Virus record (IMG/VR): IMGVR_UViG_3300009152_000170 | Location: 1-27,033 of that record | Strand: one strand, 5' to 3' | Source: a virus | DNA: 27,033 bases | Shown here: positions 2,736-13,869 of the stretch, piece by piece | Layout: each line of letters begins with the position of its first letter | Numbering within the stretch: the stretch's first letter is position 1 | The notes under the pieces: model-generated | Database searches by the model: none | Told to the model about the DNA's origin: nothing | Seen by the model: only the letters and a program-made list of their open reading frames with translations | Position numbers and translations under genes: made by a program

Positions 2736-2775
2736 CTTCCCCTTATAAATTTCATGTTCTATTTATAAGGGGAAG
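2736..2775. repeat. Perfect 15-bp inverted repeat over the gp13 ribosome-binding site
   Basis: Left arm 2736-2750 (CTTCCCCTTATAAAT) and right arm 2761-2775 are exact reverse complements, with a 10-nt loop (2751-2760). Read on the minus strand, the downstream arm carries AAGGGG, the gp13 Shine-Dalgarno sequence, and ends 2 nt before the ATG. The upstream arm carries the TATAAATA promoter. RNA reading through from the fibre genes would fold the ribosome-binding site into a 15-bp stem, while RNA started at the promoter would lack the pairing arm. On the minus strand no U-tract follows the stem, so it does not look like an intrinsic terminator. Confidence 0.9.
2760..2767 (-). promoter_or_regulatory. 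T4-type late promoter upstream of gp13
   Basis: Minus-strand TATAAATA, an exact match to the T4 late promoter -10 element, recognised in T4 by host RNA polymerase carrying gp55 and the gp33/sliding-clamp system. It lies in the only long gap on the 3' side of the fibre genes, 26 nt before the gp13 ATG. Transcription would be expected to begin near 2754, inside the loop of the inverted repeat. The 8-mer should occur a few times per strand by chance in DNA this AT-rich, so position is the main support. Confidence 0.75.
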
Positions 2776-2794: not shown

Positions 2795-5700
2795 TTATCG
2801 TGCTCTTGAGTATTTGAATGGTGATTCAGCAAAAGCTGCAAAAATATATGTATCTCCACTACCATTAATATTTACTCCAGTACCCTTTATTTTAAATCCA
2901 TTAGATAAAATATCAGCAATAATAGTTGTACCGGCAGTATCATCAGTTTCTGCAGAATTTAAACTAGGATGTATTCTACGTCCAGCAATATTATAGGGAT
3001 CACGAACAGTGTCAAAAATTGTCCAATTTTCTGTTGCAGTTGTACGTTTAAACATTATCCAGCGTGGTCTAAATCCACAGTATACAAACGGACCATCCGT
3101 ACTACCGTTACCAGTATAACTACTAATTCTACTAAATCCTGGAACTTCTGCCCAACAGTAGGCAACATAAGTGCTAGTATTTGAGTTTATAGAAGGGTTT
3201 GTTCCGATTGAAAATACACTAGAAGTTGGGGCTGTATTATTAAAAAACACGGAATTTGTTGTTTCTGCATCCGTAAGGTTAAAAAATAAAGCCTTTGTCG
3301 CCCCAAGTGATTGATGATAAGTACACCAGTTTTCACTATCACTTCTCCTCTTGACAATAAACATACTTGGCGCAACACCTAACCCATGTCCCACAGTAGC
3401 ATTAGAACCTGTACCAGTATAAGTTACAATACTAAATCCAGACAAAGGGTTAGCACTAACTTGTGTTGAGATTGATCCAGTAGTATTAGTTACTGCAGCA
3501 CCACCTGCAGCCCAATTCCAACCGACCCAGGTATACCCCTGTGCTGCTTGATTAAGTGATGCTGAACCAGTATTAAAAGTAACACCATAAGGAGTTGAAA
3601 CTAATTGAATGTCGCCTGTGTTTTCAGCATCGGTCTTATTAGTTGCAAAATATTTTGTGAAACCTCGAACCGTATCTACTAAATAGTGATCGAGAGTAAT
3701 GGGTCTATTTTTAATCCACAAAAGACCACCATAAGTGGCCATATCAACACCAGTATTAATTGAACGAGCTGTACTATCCGTAGCAGACCAAGAGTCAACT
3801 CCCATAAACTTAGTAGCTAATGTCGCACTAGTTGATCCGATAGTTGGGGTTGGTAAATTCTGTGTGCATAGTGCTTTGTAGCCACTAGGCGCAGTATATG
3901 CAAATGGACGTTGACCAAAATTGGCTGAAATTGTTACGCCACTGACGGAAGTTGCATTTATAGTGAATGTACCACTTAATCCTGTATATGCAGTTCCCTG
4001 ACTTGCTCCATTTTTATAAAATACAAGTGTTCCTGCATCTAAATCTAATGCTACGCCAATTATGTCACCTGTTGTATATGTAGCGCCATATGCAGCATTG
4101 GTATTTGATCTGTATTTGTTTCCATCACCGGAATAATATGCATATCCGTTTGTAGTATACCAAAACTTTCCATTGTAACCTTCGTTATTAGCTATGGTAT
4201 TTTGATAGGCAGAAGTAGAAACTCCAATGAAACCTGTAGTTCCAGCCATTGTAAATTCTGCATACCATTTTCCAGAACTTACTGAAATGGATGACACGGC
4301 AGTTCCGTATTGTCCGCCTACAGACATTGAGTTGTCTAAATTTCCATTAGCAAGAGTGTTATTGCTTCCCGGTAGATCTAATCTATTCAAAGTAGCATAA
4401 TTACCACGCACTTCACCACCAGCACCAGTGTCTGTACCGTAGTTTGTTGGTGAGTCTACAAAACTATCATTGCCTACACCAGCCGTGACACTAAGGTTAG
4501 TTGGTGTAAAATTATTTGCATTACCAGACAAGTCTTTGCCTAGAGTACCAGCAGTAATATTTGAATTATCAGCAAAGTTTAGATAGAATCCCCTAGTCCC
4601 GTAACTACCAACATATCTTGATGGCGACCAAACTCCAGTATTTGGATCAACATATCCAAAACTACCTGGACCTAGTTGTTGACCATCTATAAAATTTACC
4701 TCAGTTATGTAGCCATTGGTAGTGTAGTTGGTAGTGCCGGTATCATACGCACCTATAAAGTAAGGGAATGCAGAATAGTTAACATATCCATTAGTATTTT
4801 GTGTTGGATATGTTGATCCACTAGTAATTGCTTGTAGAACACCATTTACATAAATTTTTACTCTATCACTAGCCGTAGATTGTGTAGTATCATAAGCACA
4901 AACTATGTGATACCATGCAGACATATCCCTAAACTTGGCTATAGTAGTTATATTATAACTTCCGCCCGATTGTTCATTAAAATTTATACAATCTATACCA
5001 CTGTCAGAACCATATAGTCCAAACTGTAAGAGTGCTGATCCAGCTGATCTATCACTAGCACCAAAAAAAACAGGGGGATTAGTATTACTAGAGTTAAGTT
5101 TTGAGCGTTTTACCCAACCGCTCCAAGTCCAAGTTTGGCGATTTCCACCAGCACTACCTGCACGTTCTAGAATAGGACCATCAGCACTGTTAAACCTCAA
5201 AGAACGTGAAATCTGATAATCTGGATTTGTAAAGAGTGTTGGTGTAGTAGAAGCTAATGTTCCAGATGAATAGAACGTGTGCGAAATGTATCCGTTATTG
5301 TATGCAACAGTTCCACCAGTGTAGTATTGGATGTTTCCAGGATAGCGAACTACTACAATACCGCTTCCTCCAGATTTAGATCCCAAATATCCAATAGCGC
5401 CTCCACCAGCTCCACCTCCAGTGTTTGGTGATCCTGCCGTTGGCGCAGTAGTGCCGCCGTACGCACCATTACCACCACCGCCTAAGCCACCTGCTGGCGT
5501 ATATATGATAGTAGAACTAATATCTTGATATCCTACACTATTGCGAGAATCAACTCCGCCTCCGCCACCACCGGCGTACATTGTTCGAACACCAGTAATG
5601 TCTGAAGCTGCACCCATTCCGCCGTTGCCGCCAGCAACATATGCATTTGCATGTCCTCCTGGAGATCCAGCACCTCCACCGCCTCCACCTGCACCATATC

Positions 5701-6202
5701 CATTGTTATTTTTATATCCGTCGCCGCCTCGATTTCCCTGTTCGTTTGTTCCGGCTGAGCCAGAATATTGTGGATAGCTAGAACTATCTAATCCCCAACC
5801 ACCGCCACCAGATCCACCAATTCCAGGAACTCCAGCATAAGAAGATGCAGCTGATCCGCCTCCCCCACCACCAAGTGAGATGATTGCTGCTGATCCTGCA
5901 CCAAATTCTCCAAAACTAGAATTTGTTCCAGTTGTTCCAGCGACACCGTTAGTCGATGAACCAGCGCCTCCGCCACCCACTGTAATATAATAAGAAACTC
6001 CTGGTGATACGCTTGTGAAATCTTGACGAAAGCCTCCAGCTCCACCACCACCATTACCACCAGTATCAATACCTGCACCGCTGCCCCCACCACCAGCGAC
6101 TACAAGATACTCAATGCTGGTTGGAGGAACACCTTCCCAAGTATTATTTTTTACTGCTTGAGCGACTTGACTCAGCGTCCAAATTCCACCATATTGAGGC
6201 AT
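2795..6202 (-). CDS. Glycine-rich / LamG / SPRY tail fibre, second paralog
   Basis: 1135 residues; a probable host-binding fibre or adhesin. Order of parts: a short N-terminal anchor (GGIWTLSQVAQAV, 5-17); a glycine-rich domain opening with IEYLVVAGGGG and closing with GGSGIVVVRY (about 29-288); a short beta segment YNNGYISHTFYSSG (301-314); a LamG/concanavalin-like domain (about 330-545; FNSADGP, WTWSGWVKR, WYHIVCAYD, RVKIYVNGV, YLNFAD); a SPRY-like domain (about 643-765; SGKWYAEFTMA, GDIIGVALDLDAGTLVFYKNG); then three related C-terminal units (about 798-880, 921-1000, 1026-1107) ending AESPFKYSRAR. It aligns along its full length with the fibre at 8090-11452. GGAG lies upstream and the start is 6 nt after the 119-residue gene. 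LamG and SPRY folds commonly bind sugars or proteins; the actual receptor is unknown. Confidence 0.85.
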   Translation of the reverse strand: MPQYGGIWTLSQVAQAVKNNTWEGVPPTSIEYLVVAGGGGSGAGIDTGGNGGGGAGGFRQDFTSVSPGVSYYITVGGGGAGSSTNGVAGTTGTNSSFGEFGAGSAAIISLGGGGGGSAASSYAGVPGIGGSGGGGWGLDSSSYPQYSGSAGTNEQGNRGGDGYKNNNGYGAGGGGGGAGSPGGHANAYVAGGNGGMGAASDITGVRTMYAGGGGGGVDSRNSVGYQDISSTIIYTPAGGLGGGGNGAYGGTTAPTAGSPNTGGGAGGGAIGYLGSKSGGSGIVVVRYPGNIQYYTGGTVAYNNGYISHTFYSSGTLASTTPTLFTNPDYQISRSLRFNSADGPILERAGSAGGNRQTWTWSGWVKRSKLNSSNTNPPVFFGASDRSAGSALLQFGLYGSDSGIDCINFNEQSGGSYNITTIAKFRDMSAWYHIVCAYDTTQSTASDRVKIYVNGVLQAITSGSTYPTQNTNGYVNYSAFPYFIGAYDTGTTNYTTNGYITEVNFIDGQQLGPGSFGYVDPNTGVWSPSRYVGSYGTRGFYLNFADNSNITAGTLGKDLSGNANNFTPTNLSVTAGVGNDSFVDSPTNYGTDTGAGGEVRGNYATLNRLDLPGSNNTLANGNLDNSMSVGGQYGTAVSSISVSSGKWYAEFTMAGTTGFIGVSTSAYQNTIANNEGYNGKFWYTTNGYAYYSGDGNKYRSNTNAAYGATYTTGDIIGVALDLDAGTLVFYKNGASQGTAYTGLSGTFTINATSVSGVTISANFGQRPFAYTAPSGYKALCTQNLPTPTIGSTSATLATKFMGVDSWSATDSTARSINTGVDMATYGGLLWIKNRPITLDHYLVDTVRGFTKYFATNKTDAENTGDIQLVSTPYGVTFNTGSASLNQAAQGYTWVGWNWAAGGAAVTNTTGSISTQVSANPLSGFSIVTYTGTGSNATVGHGLGVAPSMFIVKRRSDSENWCTYHQSLGATKALFFNLTDAETTNSVFFNNTAPTSSVFSIGTNPSINSNTSTYVAYCWAEVPGFSRISSYTGNGSTDGPFVYCGFRPRWIMFKRTTATENWTIFDTVRDPYNIAGRRIHPSLNSAETDDTAGTTIIADILSNGFKIKGTGVNINGSGDTYIFAAFAESPFKYSRAR

Positions 6203-6208
6203 ATCTAT

Positions 6209-6568
6209 TTACTCCGATACTGTCGTTTCTGGTTCAATCCAAGAAGTTGTTTCTTCATCCCATACATACATTTTTCCGTCTTGCGGTCTTGCTACTGGAG
6301 GATTCCATAAACAAGTTGCTTCATCAAGCAACCAAGAAGCATGTGGTTTTGGTGGAATAAAAGCATCTCTTACGCTGTCATAAGTAAATCCTATACCAGC
6401 ATAATTTTTACGAAGAGGTCTTCCTTCCGGATGTTGTCCAGCTTGTGTGTTGTAGCTGGTTTGAATCCAAGATGATGGGTCTCCCCAATGCCCTGTGTTG
6501 AGTGTCTCTTGGTCAATCACGATCACCTGTGTGACTACACCGTTTTCTACTTTTGCAAAATGCGCCAT
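6209..6568 (-). CDS. Conserved MAHFAK-type phage protein, possible fibre accessory
   Basis: 119 residues. I recognise the family as a common small protein of T4-like marine phages with no established function. Conserved features are the N-terminus MAHFAKVENGVVTQVIVID, TSYNTQAG (37-44), RKNYAGIGFTYD (53-64), DAFIPPKP (68-75) and regularly spaced tryptophans at 79, 88, 103 and 110 in short turn-rich segments (YVWDEETTSW). There is no signal peptide or membrane segment. It sits between a short glycine-rich gene and the long fibre, where T4-like phages often keep fibre assembly factors, so a role as chaperone or fibre cap is a fair inference from context only. The ribosome-binding site GAGGGAGA is good. 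Confidence 0.75.
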   Translation of the reverse strand: MAHFAKVENGVVTQVIVIDQETLNTGHWGDPSSWIQTSYNTQAGQHPEGRPLRKNYAGIGFTYDSVRDAFIPPKPHASWLLDEATCLWNPPVARPQDGKMYVWDEETTSWIEPETTVSE

Positions 6569-6586
6569 GTTAAAGTCTCCCTCTTT

Positions 6587-7495
6587 TTAGAAAGTAATTG
6601 AACCACTACTGGTCCAAATATATACTCGATATCCGTTATTATATAGTATCTGAGGACCGCCAGTAGTTGATGCTGCTGGTGCTAAATTCTGAGAGTATCG
6701 AATGACTACGATACCAGATCCACCATTTGCTCCGTAAGAAGTGTTTGATCCGCCACCACCGCCTCCGCCACTATTACCTTCACCTTCTTTTGGGTTTTGT
6801 GTTCCAAATCTTTGTCCAACTCCAAGTCCAACTCCCCAATACGCTCCTGTACCGCCGCCACCGACTCCACCATATGGAATTCCAGCATCAGTAGAAACGT
6901 GATTATAATTTCCTCCACCGCCACCGCCAGAATAAAACACTCTTGATCCAGTTATAGAAGAAGCCATTCCACTTCCGCCATATGCGTGACCAGGCTTTGA
7001 TCCAGATTTCCCTGTGCTACCAGCACCGCCGCCGCCAGATCCATTACCGAAATAAGATATTCCACCAACATTACCTTGACCAGTTACTGCTGCTGCTGCG
7101 GCTTGAGCTGTGTTTCCGCCAGATCCACCACCAGATCCGCCCGGACCTCCAGCAGAACCAGATCCACCACCATAGCCGCCACCGTATGCAATGAGTCCGC
7201 CAAAAATAGATTCGCTTCCTTGAGTACCTTTAGATGAAGAGCCTGTTGATGATGGTGATCCGTATGCACCTCCAGCGCCAATGCTAATAGCAATAGCTAC
7301 TCCTGGAACGATCAAATATCCAGTACCCGTCAAAAAGCCTCCACCACCTCCACCACCATTACCGATTACGGTATCATTATAGCCTCCAGCACCACCGCCA
7401 CCACCACCGACTATAAGATATTCAACAGAAGCGGGTTTTTGATCCGTGAATGGATTGAATGTCGCGCTTAAAAATCCGCCCAGATATTGACTCAT
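6587..7495 (-). CDS. Short glycine-rich putative adhesin, second copy
   Basis: 302 residues. It has a short N-terminal anchor (MSQYLGGFLSATFNPF), a glycine-rich domain beginning VEYLIVGGGGGG (25-36) and ending GGSGIVVIRY (about 260-269), then a short beta tail NNGYRVYIWTSSGSITF. It closely resembles the 292-residue protein at 11459-12337 and the N-terminal third of the two long fibres, but stops where those continue into LamG. The glycines come as separated GGGG blocks, not a Gly-X-Y collagen pattern. Such glycine-rich domains are known in phage adhesins (for example S16 gp38), where they pack as polyglycine helices with specificity loops; the same role here is inferred. The ribosome-binding site is weak and the gap to the preceding gene is 6 nt. 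Confidence 0.82.
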   Translation of the reverse strand: MSQYLGGFLSATFNPFTDQKPASVEYLIVGGGGGGAGGYNDTVIGNGGGGGGGFLTGTGYLIVPGVAIAISIGAGGAYGSPSSTGSSSKGTQGSESIFGGLIAYGGGYGGGSGSAGGPGGSGGGSGGNTAQAAAAAVTGQGNVGGISYFGNGSGGGGAGSTGKSGSKPGHAYGGSGMASSITGSRVFYSGGGGGGNYNHVSTDAGIPYGGVGGGGTGAYWGVGLGVGQRFGTQNPKEGEGNSGGGGGGGSNTSYGANGGSGIVVIRYSQNLAPAASTTGGPQILYNNGYRVYIWTSSGSITF

Positions 7496-7501
7496 TTCAA
7501 A

Positions 7502-8074
7502 TTAATTCCAATTAGAAGACTGAACCGCCGCAATGAATGTTGTCATGTCTTGTGCTGCTGTTACTGCAGCGATCAATCTATCGCACTCAGCTAAAATAGC
7601 TGCTCTTTTAGCAACAACTTCGCTAGGAATATCAACATTGCGTTCAGCTTTACGAATTACCATCCAATCGGTTGGAGACAAATGTAAATTGGCAGATTCT
7701 TTGAACTGAGAAATGTATTGAGTTTTCAATCCAGTTTTAATGGCACGCTCAGTACTATTCACCATTGCGCCTTTGCCTTTATTTGCAGATGCACTCCAAA
7801 CTTGAACATATACTGGATTACCATCAACATCAACAGCTTCTATATCTTCTAATTGCTTTGGTATATTAGAATAGACTCTAAGAACTCTATCAGATTCAAT
7901 AACAAATTGCTCAAATGCGACCCAATAAAATCTTTCGTCTTTTCTCTCTCCGTCTACGACAGGAAGAGCGCCACGTTGAATTGCAAACAGATGATTTGGT
8001 TGAAGTTCACCCGGAAATAATGTTCTTAATTCACCAACTTCCGTAATTTGATTATTTTGAATTAGTGCATACAT
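7502..8074 (-). CDS. Tail fibre assembly-like protein
   Basis: 190 residues. The start MYALIQNNQITEVG and the C-terminal part with LSPTDWMVIRKAERNVDIP (132-150), then SEVVAKRAAILAECDRL (151-167), resemble phage tail fibre assembly/chaperone proteins, which typically carry a 'TDW-hRk-E---hP--v--yR--I' segment after a beta-rich N-terminal half. The last 40 residues look helical. It lies directly downstream of the 1120-residue fibre, 15 nt after its predecessor's... neighbour boundary, with a strong AAGGAA ribosome-binding site, which supports a role in folding or trimerising that fibre. It could instead be a structural component of the fibre tip. Only the family resemblance and the position are seen here. 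Confidence 0.7.
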   Translation of the reverse strand: MYALIQNNQITEVGELRTLFPGELQPNHLFAIQRGALPVVDGERKDERFYWVAFEQFVIESDRVLRVYSNIPKQLEDIEAVDVDGNPVYVQVWSASANKGKGAMVNSTERAIKTGLKTQYISQFKESANLHLSPTDWMVIRKAERNVDIPSEVVAKRAAILAECDRLIAAVTAAQDMTTFIAAVQSSNWN

Positions 8075-8089
8075 GATTCTTGTTTCCTT

Positions 8090-11000
8090 TTAACGAGCAG
8101 TTGAATATTTAAATGGCATTTCAGCAAAGGCCATGAAAATGTGTTTTGTTGCGTAATTTGTTTCTCCAGCATATCCTATTTTAAATCCATTTGATAGAAA
8201 ATCTATAGGCCAACCATTACTTTCCGTGTTCGGTAAGTTTGCGCGAAGATTGCCCCAATTGGGAGTATCTGGTCTATCAGCTTCAAATATATTCCAGTTT
8301 GGTCCGTCACTGCTGGATGTTGATCTTTTTATCATTATAAATTTTGGTTTGAATCCGCAATATACAAATGGCCCTAAAGCATTAGCAATTCCAGTATAGT
8401 CGCCAAATCTACTAAAGCCTGGAATTTCTGCAAAATTATAAAATACCCAATTAGTGTTACCACCCCAGTATGCGCGAACATCTGATCCACCAATAGTTAC
8501 GAGTGTCGAAGTTACGGAATTAAAAGTGAATCCAGATGCAATATCTCCATCAGTATTATTTAATCTTATATCTGCGTTTCCAAGAGATTTATGCCAAACA
8601 AACCAATCACTAGTGCTGCCAAGGTTTTTAGCAAAAATAAATCCTGGAGAAGCGCCCAAGCCATGACCATATGTTTGACTACCACTACTATTTGGAATAG
8701 TTAATGTTACGATACTAATTCCTGATGTTTGATTTGCAAGAACTTGTGCGCTCATGCTACCTTGAGTGTTTGTTACTGCGCTTCCACCAATGTACCAATT
8801 TCGTGCAATGTAAGAAACTCCACTACTATTATGATTGACGTTATTCCCGAGACTAAATCCACTAGATGTAAAAGTTCCATAAGTCGCATCAGTCAATTCA
8901 GCAAAAGTACCATCACTTATCAAACGTTTTGTTGACCCTCTAAGACTGTCTCTGAGAATATTATATCCCTCTGCTGATCTTGATTTAGTCCAAACAAAAT
9001 CTGGTTGAAATCCTACATTAGTGATTGTATTTGTACCGCCATTACCTGTATATAGTACAGTATTAAAATACTTACTAGCTTGTGTTGCGCTAGTCGCACC
9101 TATTGTTGGTGTGGGTAGGTTTTGTACGCATAGTGCTTTGAATCCTGTTGGTGCTTGATATTTCCAAGGAAGTTGTCCAAAGTTACAATCAATTTGAACA
9201 TGATATCCACTTGCACCACAACCTACTTCAAATCCCCACGGTTCTCCTGTAGTAATAGTAGTTATTTGATTTGTTCCAGCTGAAGGATTTCCACTGTTTA
9301 GCCAAGTTCCATTTTTGCCAAACCACACTTTTCCATTGTCTAAATCAAGAGCAATTGATATTGTATCACCTATGGTATAGGTTAATCCCGAATAAATGGT
9401 GCTATAGACTCGATCTACAATAAGTCCGTCGGACGCTTGATAACTAACAACAGCTGGCGCACTACCTGTGTTTCCAGTTGCGCCTATTGGATGCAATCTA
9501 GCTACTGCAATATTAGCAAAAATCGCTCCAGGAAAAGGTGCACTAGGGTATTGAGTGGTATCTGGACCAATAGTAAATTCAGCATACCATTTGCCAGAAT
9601 ATGGCATTATTGTTGTTTGTGGACCTAACCCGCTATTAGCAACATCTGTATCTGTATAAGTTAAATTTCCATTAGTTAAAGCATAAAAATAAGGAATATT
9701 ATTAATACCGCCAGCGACATATTCTACGGAGTTATTGAGTACAGCATAATTTCCACGAACTTCTCCACCACGACCCGTGTCTACACCCCAACTTGTTGGA
9801 ACATCTACGAGCGAATCATTAGTGACATCTGCAGCCAATCTAAAATTAAATGATCTAAAATTATTGTTATTTCCAGAGAAGTCTTTACCCAATTGAGATG
9901 TTGTTGCATACTCTGAAAAATTTAAAAAGTATCCGTTAGTTCCATATGATCCAGTATATGCTTTTGGTTGCCACTGTCCAGTGTTTGGATTAGTTTCTGC
10001 AAAATATGTTGGATCAAGTTGTTGACCATCAATCATATAAGCATCAGCAAGATACATATCTGATCTTTGGGGAGTATATGTCGGTAACCAACCCCAAGTT
10101 TGTTCTACGGTATTATTAACTTGTGCTTCAGCATTTTGTGTATAATTATTATTTTGTAGTGTGCAAAGTACACCATTTTTATATATTTTAACGCCATTGG
10201 TGTTTGATGCTTGTGTAGTATCAAGCGCGATAACAATATGATACCAAGCATGGATATCATTAAACGTTTCATTTGTTATTTGCTGTATTAAAGTTCCGCT
10301 ATTATAAATGTCAAATCTAACTTCTCCAGTCGTTGTGAAGAAAAATTGATCTCTATAGCTTTGAGAATTGTTGCTTGCGCTAAAAAAACAAGGTGCGTTT
10401 TGAAGATATACTCTTTTAATCCAAAAACTAAGTGTGAATTTTCTTCTATTTCCTGCAACTGTATTAGTTCTTTGTAGATATGTGGTATTAGCACTTGTAA
10501 ATCTTAAACTACGAGAAATTTGATATTCTGTAGTTGTAAATGGTGTTGGAGTTGTTGGAGCAAATGTTCCAGAAGAATAGAATGTGTGAACAATGTATCC
10601 ATTAGAATAGGTTACAGTTCCACCAGTGAAGTATTGAATAGTTCCGAGATAGCGAATTACTACCATTCCGGAGCCACCAGAGCCACCGTAATTTATATTG
10701 AATCCGCCAGTTCCGCCACCACCACTCCCTGTGCTTTGAATAGCAGATATGCCGTTTGCAGTTGCTGCAGCAGAACCCGATTGTCTTCCTCCACGTCCAC
10801 CTCCACCTATTCCACCACGACCCATAACACCGCCATCGACACCAGCAGTGACTCCTCCACCTCCACCACCAGCAAATGCAGTTGTCGATCCAGTAATAGA
10901 ACTTGCAACGCCACCGCCACCTAAGCCTCCAGTCTGGTATGTGTAATAATCCACCGATTGGAGTCCTTTTGAGCCTGGTGCTCCAGCACCACCTCCACCA

Positions 11001-11452
11001 CCTGCTACCGTAACATATATACCTTCTCCACCAGGATTTCCTTGACTAAAAGTTCCAGCTCCAGCACGAATAGTTCCCGATGGTTGTCCAGCAGTTCCAC
11101 CCCCACCACCAGATCCTCCACTAATGCCGCTAGCATAACCCCCTCGACCACCACCAATCGCAACGATAGATCCAAAAGAACTATTTCCGCCGCTACTCGA
11201 AGTAGTATCTTTAGTGCCTGCTCCACCAGAACCGACAGTTACTGAATATGACGTTCCTAGTGCTATAGATGCTATTCCTTGAAGAACTCCTCCAGCACCA
11301 GATCCACCAGATCCATAGAAAATTCCACCTTCAGCACCACCACCTCCTGCGACTACAAGATATTCGACCCATTTTGGTACAACATATCCAGTCCAAGATC
11401 CTTGACCGATTGATTGTGCAACTTGCTTTAGCGAAAATATACCTTGTGCCAT
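8090..11452 (-). CDS. Glycine-rich / LamG / SPRY tail fibre, first paralog
   Basis: 1120 residues, built like the fibre at 2795-6202. Parts in order: anchor QGIFSLKQVAQSI (3-15); glycine-rich domain from VEYLVVAGGGG to GGSGMVVIRY (about 29-268); linker YSNGYIVHTFYSSG (282-295); LamG-like domain (about 311-515; FTSANTTYLQR, FTLSFWIKR, WYHIVIALD, GVKIYKNGV, YFLNFSE); SPRY-like domain (about 619-765; SGKWYAEFTIG, GDTISIALDLDNGKVWFGKNG); then three tandem C-terminal units (about 799-870, 914-998, 1013-1100), each with a GF.P.F+..K-like core, ending AEMPFKYSTAR. It probably binds the host surface and is followed by a fibre-assembly-like gene. A GAGGT ribosome-binding site precedes the ATG. The long antisense proline-rich frames opposite the glycine tract are codon-bias shadows. 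Confidence 0.85.
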   Translation of the reverse strand: MAQGIFSLKQVAQSIGQGSWTGYVVPKWVEYLVVAGGGGAEGGIFYGSGGSGAGGVLQGIASIALGTSYSVTVGSGGAGTKDTTSSSGGNSSFGSIVAIGGGRGGYASGISGGSGGGGGTAGQPSGTIRAGAGTFSQGNPGGEGIYVTVAGGGGGAGAPGSKGLQSVDYYTYQTGGLGGGGVASSITGSTTAFAGGGGGGVTAGVDGGVMGRGGIGGGGRGGRQSGSAAATANGISAIQSTGSGGGGTGGFNINYGGSGGSGMVVIRYLGTIQYFTGGTVTYSNGYIVHTFYSSGTFAPTTPTPFTTTEYQISRSLRFTSANTTYLQRTNTVAGNRRKFTLSFWIKRVYLQNAPCFFSASNNSQSYRDQFFFTTTGEVRFDIYNSGTLIQQITNETFNDIHAWYHIVIALDTTQASNTNGVKIYKNGVLCTLQNNNYTQNAEAQVNNTVEQTWGWLPTYTPQRSDMYLADAYMIDGQQLDPTYFAETNPNTGQWQPKAYTGSYGTNGYFLNFSEYATTSQLGKDFSGNNNNFRSFNFRLAADVTNDSLVDVPTSWGVDTGRGGEVRGNYAVLNNSVEYVAGGINNIPYFYALTNGNLTYTDTDVANSGLGPQTTIMPYSGKWYAEFTIGPDTTQYPSAPFPGAIFANIAVARLHPIGATGNTGSAPAVVSYQASDGLIVDRVYSTIYSGLTYTIGDTISIALDLDNGKVWFGKNGTWLNSGNPSAGTNQITTITTGEPWGFEVGCGASGYHVQIDCNFGQLPWKYQAPTGFKALCVQNLPTPTIGATSATQASKYFNTVLYTGNGGTNTITNVGFQPDFVWTKSRSAEGYNILRDSLRGSTKRLISDGTFAELTDATYGTFTSSGFSLGNNVNHNSSGVSYIARNWYIGGSAVTNTQGSMSAQVLANQTSGISIVTLTIPNSSGSQTYGHGLGASPGFIFAKNLGSTSDWFVWHKSLGNADIRLNNTDGDIASGFTFNSVTSTLVTIGGSDVRAYWGGNTNWVFYNFAEIPGFSRFGDYTGIANALGPFVYCGFKPKFIMIKRSTSSSDGPNWNIFEADRPDTPNWGNLRANLPNTESNGWPIDFLSNGFKIGYAGETNYATKHIFMAFAEMPFKYSTAR

Positions 11453-11458
11453 ACGACC

Positions 11459-12337
11459 TCAGAATGTAATTGTTCCAGAATTTGTAAATATATAAACTCG
11501 ATATCCACCAGCTATATATGTTCGTGGTGCACCAACCGTCGATGCTGCTTGAGCATAATAAGATGGATAACGAAGAACTACAATTCCGCTGCCACCCTTG
11601 CCTCCAGCTAAGAATCTATTTGTGCCCCCGATATAAACGAATCCACCACCAGCGCCACCAGAGCCAGTATTCGAAGCAGCATTTTCTCCATCTCCCCAAG
11701 TGTTTCCATTTCCAGCACCCCCGCCACCACCTTTGCCGCCAACTCTATATCGATGATCGCCAGCACCCCCGCCGCCGCCAGCATATTGAACTGGATATCC
11801 GGTAATAGTAGAAACTAGAGCTGCACCACCGCAACCCATATAACCACCACTGGTTGAATTTTGTGTGGGCCCATCTTCTCCCGCTGATCCTGCTCCTCCA
11901 CCACCGCCAGAAGATCCAGTTTGTGAATTACCACCAGCATTTCCTTGACCCGTTATTCCACTTCCACCAATTCCTGATGTGTGTGCAGCACCACCACCAG
12001 ATCCTCCGCTAATGCCGGTAATAAAACCAGCCCGCCCACCACCAACTGATGTAAGTGATGAAAATGTAGTATTACTTCCGTTTGTTCCAGCAGCATCTCC
12101 ACTATTATCGGCAGCTCCACCAGCTCCGCCAGTGCCAATAGTTACTGTATATGATGTTCCTGGAGTTACAACAAATCCCATTCCTTGTAACACTCCTCCA
12201 GCACCACCACCAGCACCACTGTTACCGGCTAATCCACCCCCACCTCCTGCTACTAAGAAATACTCAATAGTGGGAGGTGCTTGATTTATACCAGTATAAG
12301 AATTAGTTAAAAACGAACCAGAATATCTAAGAGACAT
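11459..12337 (-). CDS. Short glycine-rich putative adhesin, first copy
   Basis: 292 residues. N-terminal anchor MSLRYSGSFLTNSYTGI, glycine-rich domain from IEYFLVAGGGGG (24-35) to GGSGIVVLRYP, then a beta tail GGYRVYIFTNSGTITF. It is paralogous to the 302-residue protein at 6587-7495 over its full length and shares the glycine-rich module, but not the N-terminal anchor, with the two long fibres. It begins 2 nt after the small structural gene upstream and ends 6 nt before the first long fibre. Likely a fibre-tip or baseplate-bound adhesin; no enzymatic motif is visible. The ribosome-binding site is weak, so translation may be coupled to the preceding gene. Confidence 0.82.
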   Translation of the reverse strand: MSLRYSGSFLTNSYTGINQAPPTIEYFLVAGGGGGLAGNSGAGGGAGGVLQGMGFVVTPGTSYTVTIGTGGAGGAADNSGDAAGTNGSNTTFSSLTSVGGGRAGFITGISGGSGGGAAHTSGIGGSGITGQGNAGGNSQTGSSGGGGGAGSAGEDGPTQNSTSGGYMGCGGAALVSTITGYPVQYAGGGGGAGDHRYRVGGKGGGGGAGNGNTWGDGENAASNTGSGGAGGGFVYIGGTNRFLAGGKGGSGIVVLRYPSYYAQAASTVGAPRTYIAGGYRVYIFTNSGTITF

Positions 12338-12339
12338 TT

Positions 12340-12711
12340 TTAAGTAATTGCTTCGTAGGTTGCTGTGTACTCAATTGCTGAGCCTGTACCAGATGTAACT
12401 ACAACGCTCTGATTATCTTGAACATAGAATGAAGTAGTCTTATCGACAACGATGAGTGATGAATATGCTGGTACTGAAATCTGGAAACAGATTCGATATG
12501 CGGTTCCACCGCCACCTGTTGCAGAGTTAATACTAACTGTAACAGTCGCTGTACTGGAAGTAACATTAGTTGCAACAATACTATCAATCTTATTGACAGT
12601 TCCTGTTGATGGTGTTAATGCCGTCCACGCTGTTGCACTTGTGTTGCTCGGAATCAAGTATACGGTTGTTCCGTATATAGATGATACGCCGACAATATTT
12701 GGGTTTGCCAT
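12340..12711 (-). CDS. Small conserved beta-rich virion protein (MANPNIV family)
   Basis: 123 residues. The opening MANPNIVGVSSIYGTT and the later blocks ISVPAYSSLIVVDKTTSFYV and GTGSAIEYTATYEAI match a small protein widespread in T4-like cyanophages and pelagiphages; its precise function is not known to me. The alternating hydrophobic/Thr-Ser pattern predicts an all-beta sandwich. There is no signal peptide or transmembrane helix. It has the clearest ribosome-binding site of the fibre region (AAGGAG, 5-6 nt before ATG) and lies 9 nt after the repeat fibre gene, suggesting high expression as a structural or decoration component of tail fibres or baseplate. That role is inferred from context. 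Confidence 0.75.
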   Translation of the reverse strand: MANPNIVGVSSIYGTTVYLIPSNTSATAWTALTPSTGTVNKIDSIVATNVTSSTATVTVSINSATGGGGTAYRICFQISVPAYSSLIVVDKTTSFYVQDNQSVVVTSGTGSAIEYTATYEAIT

Positions 12712-12720
12712 TTTCTCTCC

Positions 12721-13869
12721 TTAGAATCCAAAGATCATCGCCATAGCGATAGATTTTCCTGTTGATATACCTGCTGTTCCAAATGAAAGTACACCACTAC
12801 CATTTGTTAAAATTGCTTGATTAGCTGAACCGTCTGACGCTGGTAATGTCCATGTAACGTTTGCACCAACTGCTGAACTGGATCTTAATCCAACATAGTT
12901 TGCGTTTGCAGATCCAAGTCTTAATACGTTTTGACTATTCAAATAAACATAGCTATTTGCAGTTAAAGCATTAACTGAAAAGTCAGCATATGCAAAGTTG
13001 TTTGCTCCAGGATCTATTACTGTTGTTGCTTCTTGTGTATACGACTTAAATAGTTTCCAAATGCCGTCTGTAGCATCTCTAAAGATTCCAGTATGTAGAT
13101 TAGCTGCACCAGAATTGTATTGTCCAAAGATACCAATGTCAATTAGATCAGATGTATTGTTGTTAGCTAATTGTATTAGTGAATCATTGACGTTGATATG
13201 TGTTGTACTAAGTTCTGTGTTTGAACCTAAAACGACCAAGTTTCCAGTAATAAATGTGTTACCAGAAACATGAAGATTCTTTCCAATTCCAACACCACCA
13301 GAAACTACTAGTGTTCCACTTGTAGAATTCGCTGATTCAGTTCCACCAGAAAGTGTCAATACGTCCGTTGTCGGATTGTATGTCATTCCAGAATCGTCTT
13401 GAATGATTCCTGAAGTTCCAACAATAGCGACACGACCAGATGTTAAATTATTTGCAGTAACGTTCGCCGTTACAATTCCACCATTAATTGTTAACACATC
13501 CGTTGTTGTGTTATATGTCAACCCAGCATCATCTTGAACTAGACCACCAGTTCCAACTAAAGCAACGCGACCAGATGTTAAATTGTTTGCTGTGACGTTT
13601 GCTGTTACGGTACTACCAGAAACATATAAAACGTCTGTCGTTCCATTGAAAAATAATCCAGAATCGTCTTGAATTAAACCATTAGCGCCGACAGAAAGAA
13701 TTCTACCAGTAGTTAGATTGTTTGCAGTAATCGTATTCGCGGTTACTGCATTTGTTACTATACTTCCGCTTCCACCATCAGTAAGGGCCGTGATAGTGTT
13801 TGCAGCAGTATTAAATGCTGTTCTAAAATCGTTAAACGTATTGTTTAACTGTATATTTGAAATTGCCAT
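12721..13869 (-). CDS. Tail fibre with 45-residue repeats and GKSIAMAMIFGF terminus
   Basis: 382 residues. The N-terminal 40 residues (NTFNDFRTAFNTAANTITAL) would form an attachment helix. Then come three near-identical 45-residue repeats, starting at NNLT residues 50, 95 and 140, each reading roughly NNLTxGR..VGxxGLxQDDxG.xxNxTTDVLxxxGG. These lead into a beta-helix-like section (GTLVVSGGVGIGKNLHVSG, 185-203), a region with LIDIGIFGQYN, and a C-terminal section WTLPASDGSANQAILTNGSG ending STGKSIAMAMIFGF. This terminus and the GVGIGKNLHV block are typical of fibres in T4-like marine phages. It follows the 81-residue coiled-coil gene by 4 nt. It may occupy the role of the T4 gp12/gp37-type fibres, but shows no sequence similarity that I can see to those. 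Confidence 0.85.
   Translation of the reverse strand: MAISNIQLNNTFNDFRTAFNTAANTITALTDGGSGSIVTNAVTANTITANNLTTGRILSVGANGLIQDDSGLFFNGTTDVLYVSGSTVTANVTANNLTSGRVALVGTGGLVQDDAGLTYNTTTDVLTINGGIVTANVTANNLTSGRVAIVGTSGIIQDDSGMTYNPTTDVLTLSGGTESANSTSGTLVVSGGVGIGKNLHVSGNTFITGNLVVLGSNTELSTTHINVNDSLIQLANNNTSDLIDIGIFGQYNSGAANLHTGIFRDATDGIWKLFKSYTQEATTVIDPGANNFAYADFSVNALTANSYVYLNSQNVLRLGSANANYVGLRSSSAVGANVTWTLPASDGSANQAILTNGSGVLSFGTAGISTGKSIAMAMIFGF
13342..13722 (-). repeat. Three 135-bp tandem repeats in the fibre gene
   Basis: Units begin at codons 50, 95 and 140 of the fibre gene. The period is exactly 45 codons and the third unit is slightly shorter. The DNA is also similar: related segments containing gttaaattatttgc-like sequence occur near 13442, 13577 and 13712 on the plus strand. 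Copies can expand or contract by recombination and change fibre length in frame. Confidence 0.85.

Follow-up and report, generated by a model that had tools for sequence, protein, structure and literature searches.

A probable four-position host-recognition array of glycine-rich adhesins in a T4-like phage

Why should one phage encode the same glycine-rich module four times in a single locus, twice alone and twice within a long fibre? Models of phage host range mostly reckon with just one or two receptor-binding proteins in each phage. The question was raised by a 27,033-nt viral sequence (IMG/VR record IMGVR_UViG_3300009152_000170, hereafter the window), and the answer is probably that the locus is a four-position host-recognition array of a T4-like phage, in which anchors are bound to their positions and adhesin bodies are exchangeable.

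The four modules lie on the minus strand, at the positions that a first-pass annotation made from the sequence alone had given (Table 1). Read in the direction of transcription, the order is P123–S1–X1–(P190)–S2–MAHFAK–X2, and the annotated succession short, long, chaperone-like, short, MAHFAK, long is correct in that direction.

Table 1. Features of the array in the window
Feature	Position	Strand	Basis
P123, small all-beta protein, 123 aa, precedes slot S1	12340..12711	-	gene context
Slot S1, stand-alone glycine-rich adhesin, 292 aa	11459..12337	-	Gly_rich_2 E 1.3e-21; AlphaFold; Foldseek
S1 glycine-rich module and terminal strand, aa 24-292	11462..12268	-	Pfam, module alignment
Slot X1 fibre, 1120 aa: anchor, glycine-rich module, LamG-like, SPRY-like, DUF7483	8090..11452	-	Pfam; phrog_19943, 24898
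X1-type anchor GIFSLKQVAQSIGQGSW, aa 4-20	11393..11443	-	anchor classes
X1 glycine-rich module, about aa 29-300	10553..11368	-	Pfam, module alignment
X1 DUF7483, aa 792-1113	8114..9079	-	Pfam
P190, likely assembly chaperone of DUF7483 fibre	7502..8074	-	gene context
Slot S2, stand-alone glycine-rich adhesin, 302 aa, anchor MSQYLGGFLSATFNPF	6587..7495	-	Gly_rich_2 E 2.3e-17
S2 glycine-rich module and terminal strand, aa 24-302	6590..7426	-	Pfam, module alignment
MAHFAK protein, 119 aa, partner gene of glycine-rich adhesins	6209..6568	-	phrog_7759; gene context
Slot X2 fibre, 1135 aa: anchor, glycine-rich module, LamG-like, SPRY, DUF7483	2795..6202	-	Pfam
X2-type anchor GIWTLSQVAQAVKNNTW, aa 6-22	6137..6187	-	anchor classes; short helix aa 10-18 in low-confidence model
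X2 glycine-rich module, about aa 31-318	5249..6112	-	Pfam, module alignment
X2 SPRY domain, aa 646-764	3911..4267	-	Pfam; PDB profile matches to SPRY domains
X2 DUF7483, aa 804-1128	2819..3793	-	Pfam

The glycine-rich module and its protein contexts

All four window proteins exceed the gathering cut-off of Pfam Gly_rich_2 (PF21722; 24.3 bits), with scores of 64.2, 78.1, 41.3 (X2) and 63.8 (X1) bits, and all four modules match phrog_2295 (E 1e-37 to 2e-40), which bears out the earlier reading of one module present four times, alone and fused. Pairwise identity is 44-56%, and 23-38% once the shared glycine columns are removed. Because the likeness persists without these columns, glycine composition alone is not a sufficient explanation for it. 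A tblastn search with P0004 against phages returned zero matches, probably because the low-complexity filter masks glycine-rich sequence, and a first hmmsearch with bias correction was also empty; module searches were therefore run with HMMs without bias correction. Megablast against phage isolates gave no match.

As the annotation had stated, the short proteins stop where the long ones go on: they terminate at a shared ...GYRVYI(F/W)T(N/S)SG(T/S)ITF strand, past which the long proteins continue. The module makes up the N-terminal quarter of both ~1,100-aa fibres and is followed by a LamG-like region, SPRY and DUF7483. The SPRY score (PF00622, cut-off 26.3) is 54.9 in the 1135-aa fibre, which passes, versus 22.5 in the 1120-aa fibre, which does not, and no Pfam laminin-G model matched the window fibres at E 0.01; the LamG label is based on annotated homologues and on Foldseek matches to laminin LG4-5 in a model region of moderate confidence. 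DUF7483 (PF24299, cut-off 27), a unit that the annotation had not named, closes both fibres with 353.1 bits in X2 and 284.9 bits in X1.

Structure prediction, a check proposed in the annotation, yielded a confident AlphaFold model of S1 (pLDDT 91.9, pTM 0.88; residues 1-6 and 10-16 below 50), in which residues 1-16 are mostly unstructured and the module begins at about residue 24. The model of the 1135-residue X2 is poor (pLDDT 56.8), and the domain layout of the X proteins was therefore taken from sequence; low-confidence modelling gives these proteins a single short N-terminal helix, and the short proteins have no counterpart of the long helical docking domain of Pam3 gp24. A profile of the short proteins found the Pam3 tail fibre chains as its sole sequence matches in the PDB (E 1.4e-4 and 1.7e-4). 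Foldseek ranked the glycine-rich brush domain of the Bxb1 tail tip (PDB 9D93) as the best match to the S1 model (E 3e-5, TM-score 0.34-0.44) and returned the Pam3 fibre with probability 1.00 (TM-score 0.40-0.46), the likeness being limited overall (TM-score 0.34-0.46, rmsd 7.6-11.8). These matches to receptor-binding fibres support, at the level of fold, the designation of the module as adhesin-type, with receptor binding as its predicted role.

The systems with which the window can be compared differ from it in architecture. Pam3 gp24, with its chaperone gp25 (PDB 7YPX, 7YFW; PMC9608196), carries a glycine-rich domain on a TNF-like base, like the window modules, and the variable distal tip of this fold, seen by cryo-EM, was proposed as the receptor binder (PMC9608196). 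The Pam3 chaperone gene lies downstream of the fibre, and here P190, a likely chaperone, follows the DUF7483 fibre. The single Pam3 fibre, however, bears a long helical domain for docking and trimerisation, whereas the window encodes four proteins with anchors of about 20 residues; P190 and MAHFAK have no detectable similarity to gp25. Glycine-rich brush domains have been described as presumed anti-receptors (PMC13243795), but Bxb1 is another type of phage, and a four-gene array is not described there. In gp38 of the T2/S16 type (PDB 6F45; PMC6851490), glycine-rich motifs likewise alternate with variable loops, which relate to host range (PMC6851490); an alignment of 78 S proteins of the array showed invariant GG motifs and unconserved loops. 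Unlike them, gp38 has a beta-helix base and caps gp37, and 6F45 was absent from the 42 Foldseek matches of S1 and did not turn up when the PDB was searched by sequence. Alteromonas phages A5, V22 and P24 (PMC10579305) similarly share syntenic recognition genes across families, with a fibre and a downstream chaperone, but the proteins are others, with one receptor-binding tail fibre, and neither a position-specific anchor set nor exchange between positions is described. No description of MAHFAK or of the four-position array was found among the open-access papers searched.

Position-specific anchors, fixed order and partner genes

Each of the four positions carries its own class of N-terminal anchor (S1, X1, S2, X2). 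About ninety other contigs of environmental phages have the array order as well, a count that is no frequency estimate because the contigs were retrieved with array genes as bait. Carriers comprise T4-like phages, small podovirus-like phages and one 335-kb phage contig; no carrier of the four-position array was found among the isolates examined. Patterns built from anchor letters alone identified 165 ORFs in 62 contigs, every one with the module, and the 169 ordered pairs included 0 violations. The same patterns, frozen and applied to 31 fresh contigs that had played no part in writing them, found 85 ORFs and again 0 violations (83 ordered pairs). Nearest neighbours come from the same position for 96% of anchors, 86% of cores and 92% of tails (expected, 25%), and a tree of 161 cores requires 19 position changes versus 88 with shuffled labels. 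The S1 anchor of the window, MSLRYSGSFLTNSYTGIN, is one residue off the strict S1 pattern and was assigned via its position and the tree.

Two docking sites had been proposed from the difference between short and long anchors. The two types do differ, but four position-specific anchors exist rather than two, and S and X anchors are joined within one protein in seven single-adhesin versions. This joining suggests that S- and X-type anchors share a docking site, possibly one composite site.

A P123 gene lies directly upstream of 60 glycine-rich ORFs labelled S1; P123 has no PDB match below E 0.03. P190 homologues lie directly 3' of the DUF7483 ORF in 62 of 70 cases, and this placement makes P190, which has no Pfam or PDB relative, a likely assembly chaperone of that fibre. 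MAHFAK is found directly downstream of a glycine-rich ORF in 62 of 77 uncut cases and, in named phages, directly 3' of one for 10 of 11 genes. Among genome contigs it occurs in three from MAGs, which are probably viral sequence caught up in binning and offer no host clue.

The four proteins might instead be alternatives used across virions or stages, the array serving as a store of specificities. Bodies do vary among members, and some phages have a single adhesin between P123 and MAHFAK. However, anchors that are specific to a position and keep one order suggest distinct places occupied at the same time, the genes of the window are spaced 2-20 nt apart, as in an operon, and neither an invertible nor a recombinase element was detected; such alternation is quite improbable.

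Origin of the positions and exchange of segments

The annotation had taken the repeated order as a duplicated cassette. If a short-long cassette had recently been duplicated in tandem in this genome, its short copies acting as gene-conversion donors for the long fibres, this would fit the order short-long-short-long and the finding that no two modules within the window are as alike as those of X1 and X2 (56%). Against this, the window S1 and X1 modules each cluster with their counterparts from the same position in other phages and not with each other, the cores of S2 and X2 fall into separate clades (SH-aLRT 99, long-branched rows removed), and among the four window modules not one stretch of 100 nt or longer reaches 80% identity. 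Trees and the lack of near-identical stretches led to the rejection of recent duplication, which is very improbable; a more ancient duplication is the likely founder of the positions. In the module trees, the window S2 and X2 were too divergent to place.

Comparison of the locus in relatives, also proposed by the annotation, revealed that one position is commonly absent from an array and that segments have been swapped between X1 and X2. At the DNA level, SPRY and glycine-core segments moved between X1 and X2 of different phages are 79–99% identical, with flanks at 33–64%. Three such segments involve contig L247: X2 aa 575-734 against X1 of L257 (97-99% nt; about 42-57% further out), X1 aa 544-743 against X2 of L250 (85-95% nt) and X2 aa 78-252 against X1 of L170 (79-89% nt). 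Homing endonuclease genes occur at array junctions in nine relatives. The idea of sequence exchange that could switch receptors is supported between phages; among the window's own four genes, which lack near-identical stretches, there is no evidence of donor use or recent conversion.

Two further candidate transfers were dropped. A move of an S2-type core into the window X2 appeared in one tree and then in a second with 100/99 support, but two long branches had met: without the window S2 and L237, X2 rejoins the X2 clade. A recent S1 transfer between the 335-kb phage contig and a 57-kb contig was rejected, the proteins being 86% identical in amino acids and only 75% in DNA. Separately, S1-S2 similarity within the same phage is slightly raised (0.40 vs 0.36), a value uncorrected for relatedness and unused as evidence.

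A proposed mechanism for the array

One alternative is that the X fibres are the sole adhesins, with S proteins as array-stabilising scaffolds or caps whose variability is loop drift. S proteins are always single-module, only about 20 mostly disordered residues precede the domain in the model, and phage chaperones can serve as transient caps (PMC10579305). Such a role is nevertheless unlikely, since the core is more variable than the tail (mean identity 0.56-0.57 vs 0.69-0.74) and known receptor-binding tips share the fold.

Under the preferred reading, a host-recognition array, each position is filled by a protein with a short position-specific anchor and a glycine-rich adhesin body, in which stacked glycine strands on a jelly-roll base would present variable loops. 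Stand-alone adhesins occupy S1 and S2. Those at X1 and X2 bear added, probably receptor-binding domains that are freely replaced, either by a second glycine domain or by the LamG-like/SPRY/DUF7483 set, which brings a chaperone-like P190 of its own. The anchors would most likely dock all four proteins onto one composite tail site of the virion, where P123 and MAHFAK may serve as a platform, a cap or a chaperone. Because anchors are fixed and bodies are swapped between positions and phages, the array could alter receptor range while the tail stays unchanged.

More broadly, the array looks like a set of plug-in host-recognition parts common to unrelated phages. We see an even chance that it is a portable, address-coded system, with four sockets in one order across phage types and genome sizes, bodies exchanged between sockets and phages, possibly aided by homing endonucleases, and MAHFAK as a new dedicated partner. 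If this is true, one virion could carry several specificities, swapped piecewise; the docking place of a body would be predictable from its anchor, and metagenomic sequence could reveal what an array contains. The finding would also bear on how common the use of the glycine-rich brush domain is (PMC13243795), and it offers functional leads for MAHFAK/phrog_7759 and P190, uncharacterised families common in aquatic phages.

The glycine-rich module and its genomic setting

The four proteins in which the first-pass annotation had recognised a glycine-rich module, the short stand-alone S1 (292 aa) and S2 (302 aa) and the long fibres X1 (1120 aa) and X2 (1135 aa), all exceed the Gly_rich_2 cut-off and match phrog_2295. 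Pairwise identity among the modules is 44-56% overall and 23-38% after removal of shared glycines. The AlphaFold model of S1 has high confidence (pLDDT 91.9, pTM 0.88) but is mostly unordered over its initial 16 residues. A profile built from 78 short proteins matched two sequences only in the PDB, both from the tail fibre of Pam3 (E 1.4e-4 and 1.7e-4). With Foldseek, the tail tip of Bxb1 was matched at E 3e-5 and Pam3 at prob 1.00, and the glycine-rich domain of ALK gave a weak match. Matches among predicted viral structures were mainly annotated glycine-rich proteins from uncultured phages. In the Pam3 domain the glycine-rich stem is conserved and the tip, the part proposed to contact the receptor, varies; a chaperone encoded downstream aids assembly (PMC9608196).

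The 27-kb window is an IMG/VR fragment with genes exclusively on the - strand; a contig from a second sample matches it at 99.94% identity across 19.7 kb. Its genes run gp6-like, 1124-aa protein, gp8-like (phrog_438), 2043-aa gp10-like, 81-aa, 382-aa, adhesin array and gp13-type neck protein (phrog_211) with neighbours, the gp6 and gp10 labels being assigned by gene order and size. The phage is T4-like but far from isolates, because the closest isolate neck protein, that of Stenotrophomonas phage DLP_6, is only 54% identical.

A perfect hairpin (table) stops just before the gp13 gene ATG, and the 5' portion of this hairpin overlaps TATAAATA, a sequence similar to a T4 late promoter box. The three such boxes counted in the window are no excess over chance; two of them (2760, 21569) sit immediately upstream of gene starts. 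Relatives of the 382-aa protein span 103 to 956 aa and recur, at times twice, in neck-protein relatives without the glycine-rich array (L008, L014, L017); this protein is probably an alternative fibre type.

Order and age of the four positions

Relatives were collected with five baits: the neck protein, both short proteins, P190 (the 190-aa protein after X1) and MAHFAK (the 119-aa protein between S2 and X2). The recurring order is P123 (123 aa), S1, X1, (P190), S2, MAHFAK, X2. Against circularity, proteins were classed from N-terminal letters only. These classes took in 165 ORFs on 62 contigs, every ORF carrying the module, with 0 violations in 169 ordered pairs and no position repeated. The frozen patterns, run on 31 new contigs retrieved later with different baits, gave 85 ORFs, all with the module, and 0 violations in 83 ordered pairs. 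The window S1 anchor (its N-terminal peptide) is one residue off the strict pattern, and its assignment rests on place and tree. In the letter-classed set, S positions hold a single module without exception, and X positions are filled by one module, by two, or by the chain module-LamG-like-SPRY-DUF7483.

Sequence comparison indicates that the four positions are old. The nearest relative occupied the same position in 96% of cases for the anchor, 86% for the core and 92% for the tail (25% expected), and a tree of 161 cores needed 19 position changes, versus 88 with shuffled labels. The window S1 and X1 modules group with the same position of other phages; S2 and X2 are too divergent for safe placement.

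Two docking sites had been proposed from the two anchor types. A single composite site is now favoured, whether it was afterwards divided between S and X proteins or the change ran the other way, because an S-like peptide is followed by an X-type motif in seven proteins, and isolate DSL-LC04 has a comparable composite. Four of the seven are the only adhesin between P123 and MAHFAK.

Exchange of bodies, and the partner genes

Three cross-position exchanges between phages are clear at the DNA level: SPRY segments shared by L257 X1 and L247 X2 (aa 575-734, 97-99% nt) and by L250 X2 and L247 X1 (aa 544-743, 85-95% nt), and a glycine core shared by L170 X1 and L247 X2 (aa 78-252, 79-89% nt). Beyond these segments identity drops to about 33-64%. 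The gp10-gp13 interval is also replaced wholesale: L007, L008 and L009 have neck proteins 97-98% identical to the window's, yet unrelated fibre genes. L010 retains S2 and MAHFAK with a different X2; its S2 matches the window's at 92% over the first 25 residues, 88% over the last 25 and 44-60% in intervening blocks.

HNH or GIY-YIG homing endonuclease genes lie at array junctions in nine relatives (table), in two of which the endonuclease ORF begins with the S2 anchor letters MSQTLLG. Such enzymes may drive body exchange.

Of 70 P190 cases, 62 lie directly after a DUF7483 ORF; the window X2, followed directly by gp13, is an exception. A glycine-rich ORF precedes MAHFAK in 62 of 77 cases and, in a separate count on named phages, precedes 10 of 11 MAHFAK genes. 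Since Pfam and PDB searches with both families gave no relative worth naming, their chaperone or cap roles are proposed from place only.

Several single loci add detail (table). The L057 tandem genes are 81% identical at the DNA level over 1,979 nt, a duplication more recent than any in the window. One L041 MAHFAK gene adjoins a small gene common to L085. The 2OG-Fe(II) oxygenases (PF13759) could possibly modify the adhesins.

Coordinates of individual features in the window and in relatives
Sequence	Position	Feature
Window	2736-2775 (-)	Perfect 15-bp hairpin, z -5.8
Window	12721-13869	382-aa protein
L057	5401-7392	Two-module adhesin gene, tandem
L057	7411-9396	Two-module adhesin gene, tandem
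L041	3854-6292	Fibre region, three MAHFAK genes
L322 (DSL-LC04)	5324-5941	Oxygenase adjoining glycine-rich adhesin and MAHFAK genes
L112	10731-11480	Oxygenase, same setting
L257	11746-12240	HNH/GIY-YIG gene
L170	13798-14334	HNH/GIY-YIG gene
L173	2624-3109	HNH/GIY-YIG gene
L175	1393-1977	HNH/GIY-YIG gene
L181	2677-3336	HNH/GIY-YIG gene
L183	12697-13323	HNH/GIY-YIG gene
L188	6354-6842	HNH/GIY-YIG gene
L204	2578-3315	HNH/GIY-YIG gene
L102	8449-9186	HNH/GIY-YIG gene

Range of the array

The array adjoins gp13 in T4-like phages. A podovirus-like contig of 33 kb (L100) has it next to genes for endolysin and DNA ejection, a contig of 164 kb (L234) has it next to gp32- and UvsX-like genes, and a contig of 335 kb (L088) carries it too. 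The four-anchor array is absent from every named phage that was examined. The first-pass reading of adhesin modules is improved: the four modules stand, and are now read, from sequence, as a conserved four-position array of predicted adhesins with exchangeable bodies. Glycine-rich receptor-binding fibres and shared host-recognition modules are known already; what is new is a four-position variant of both.
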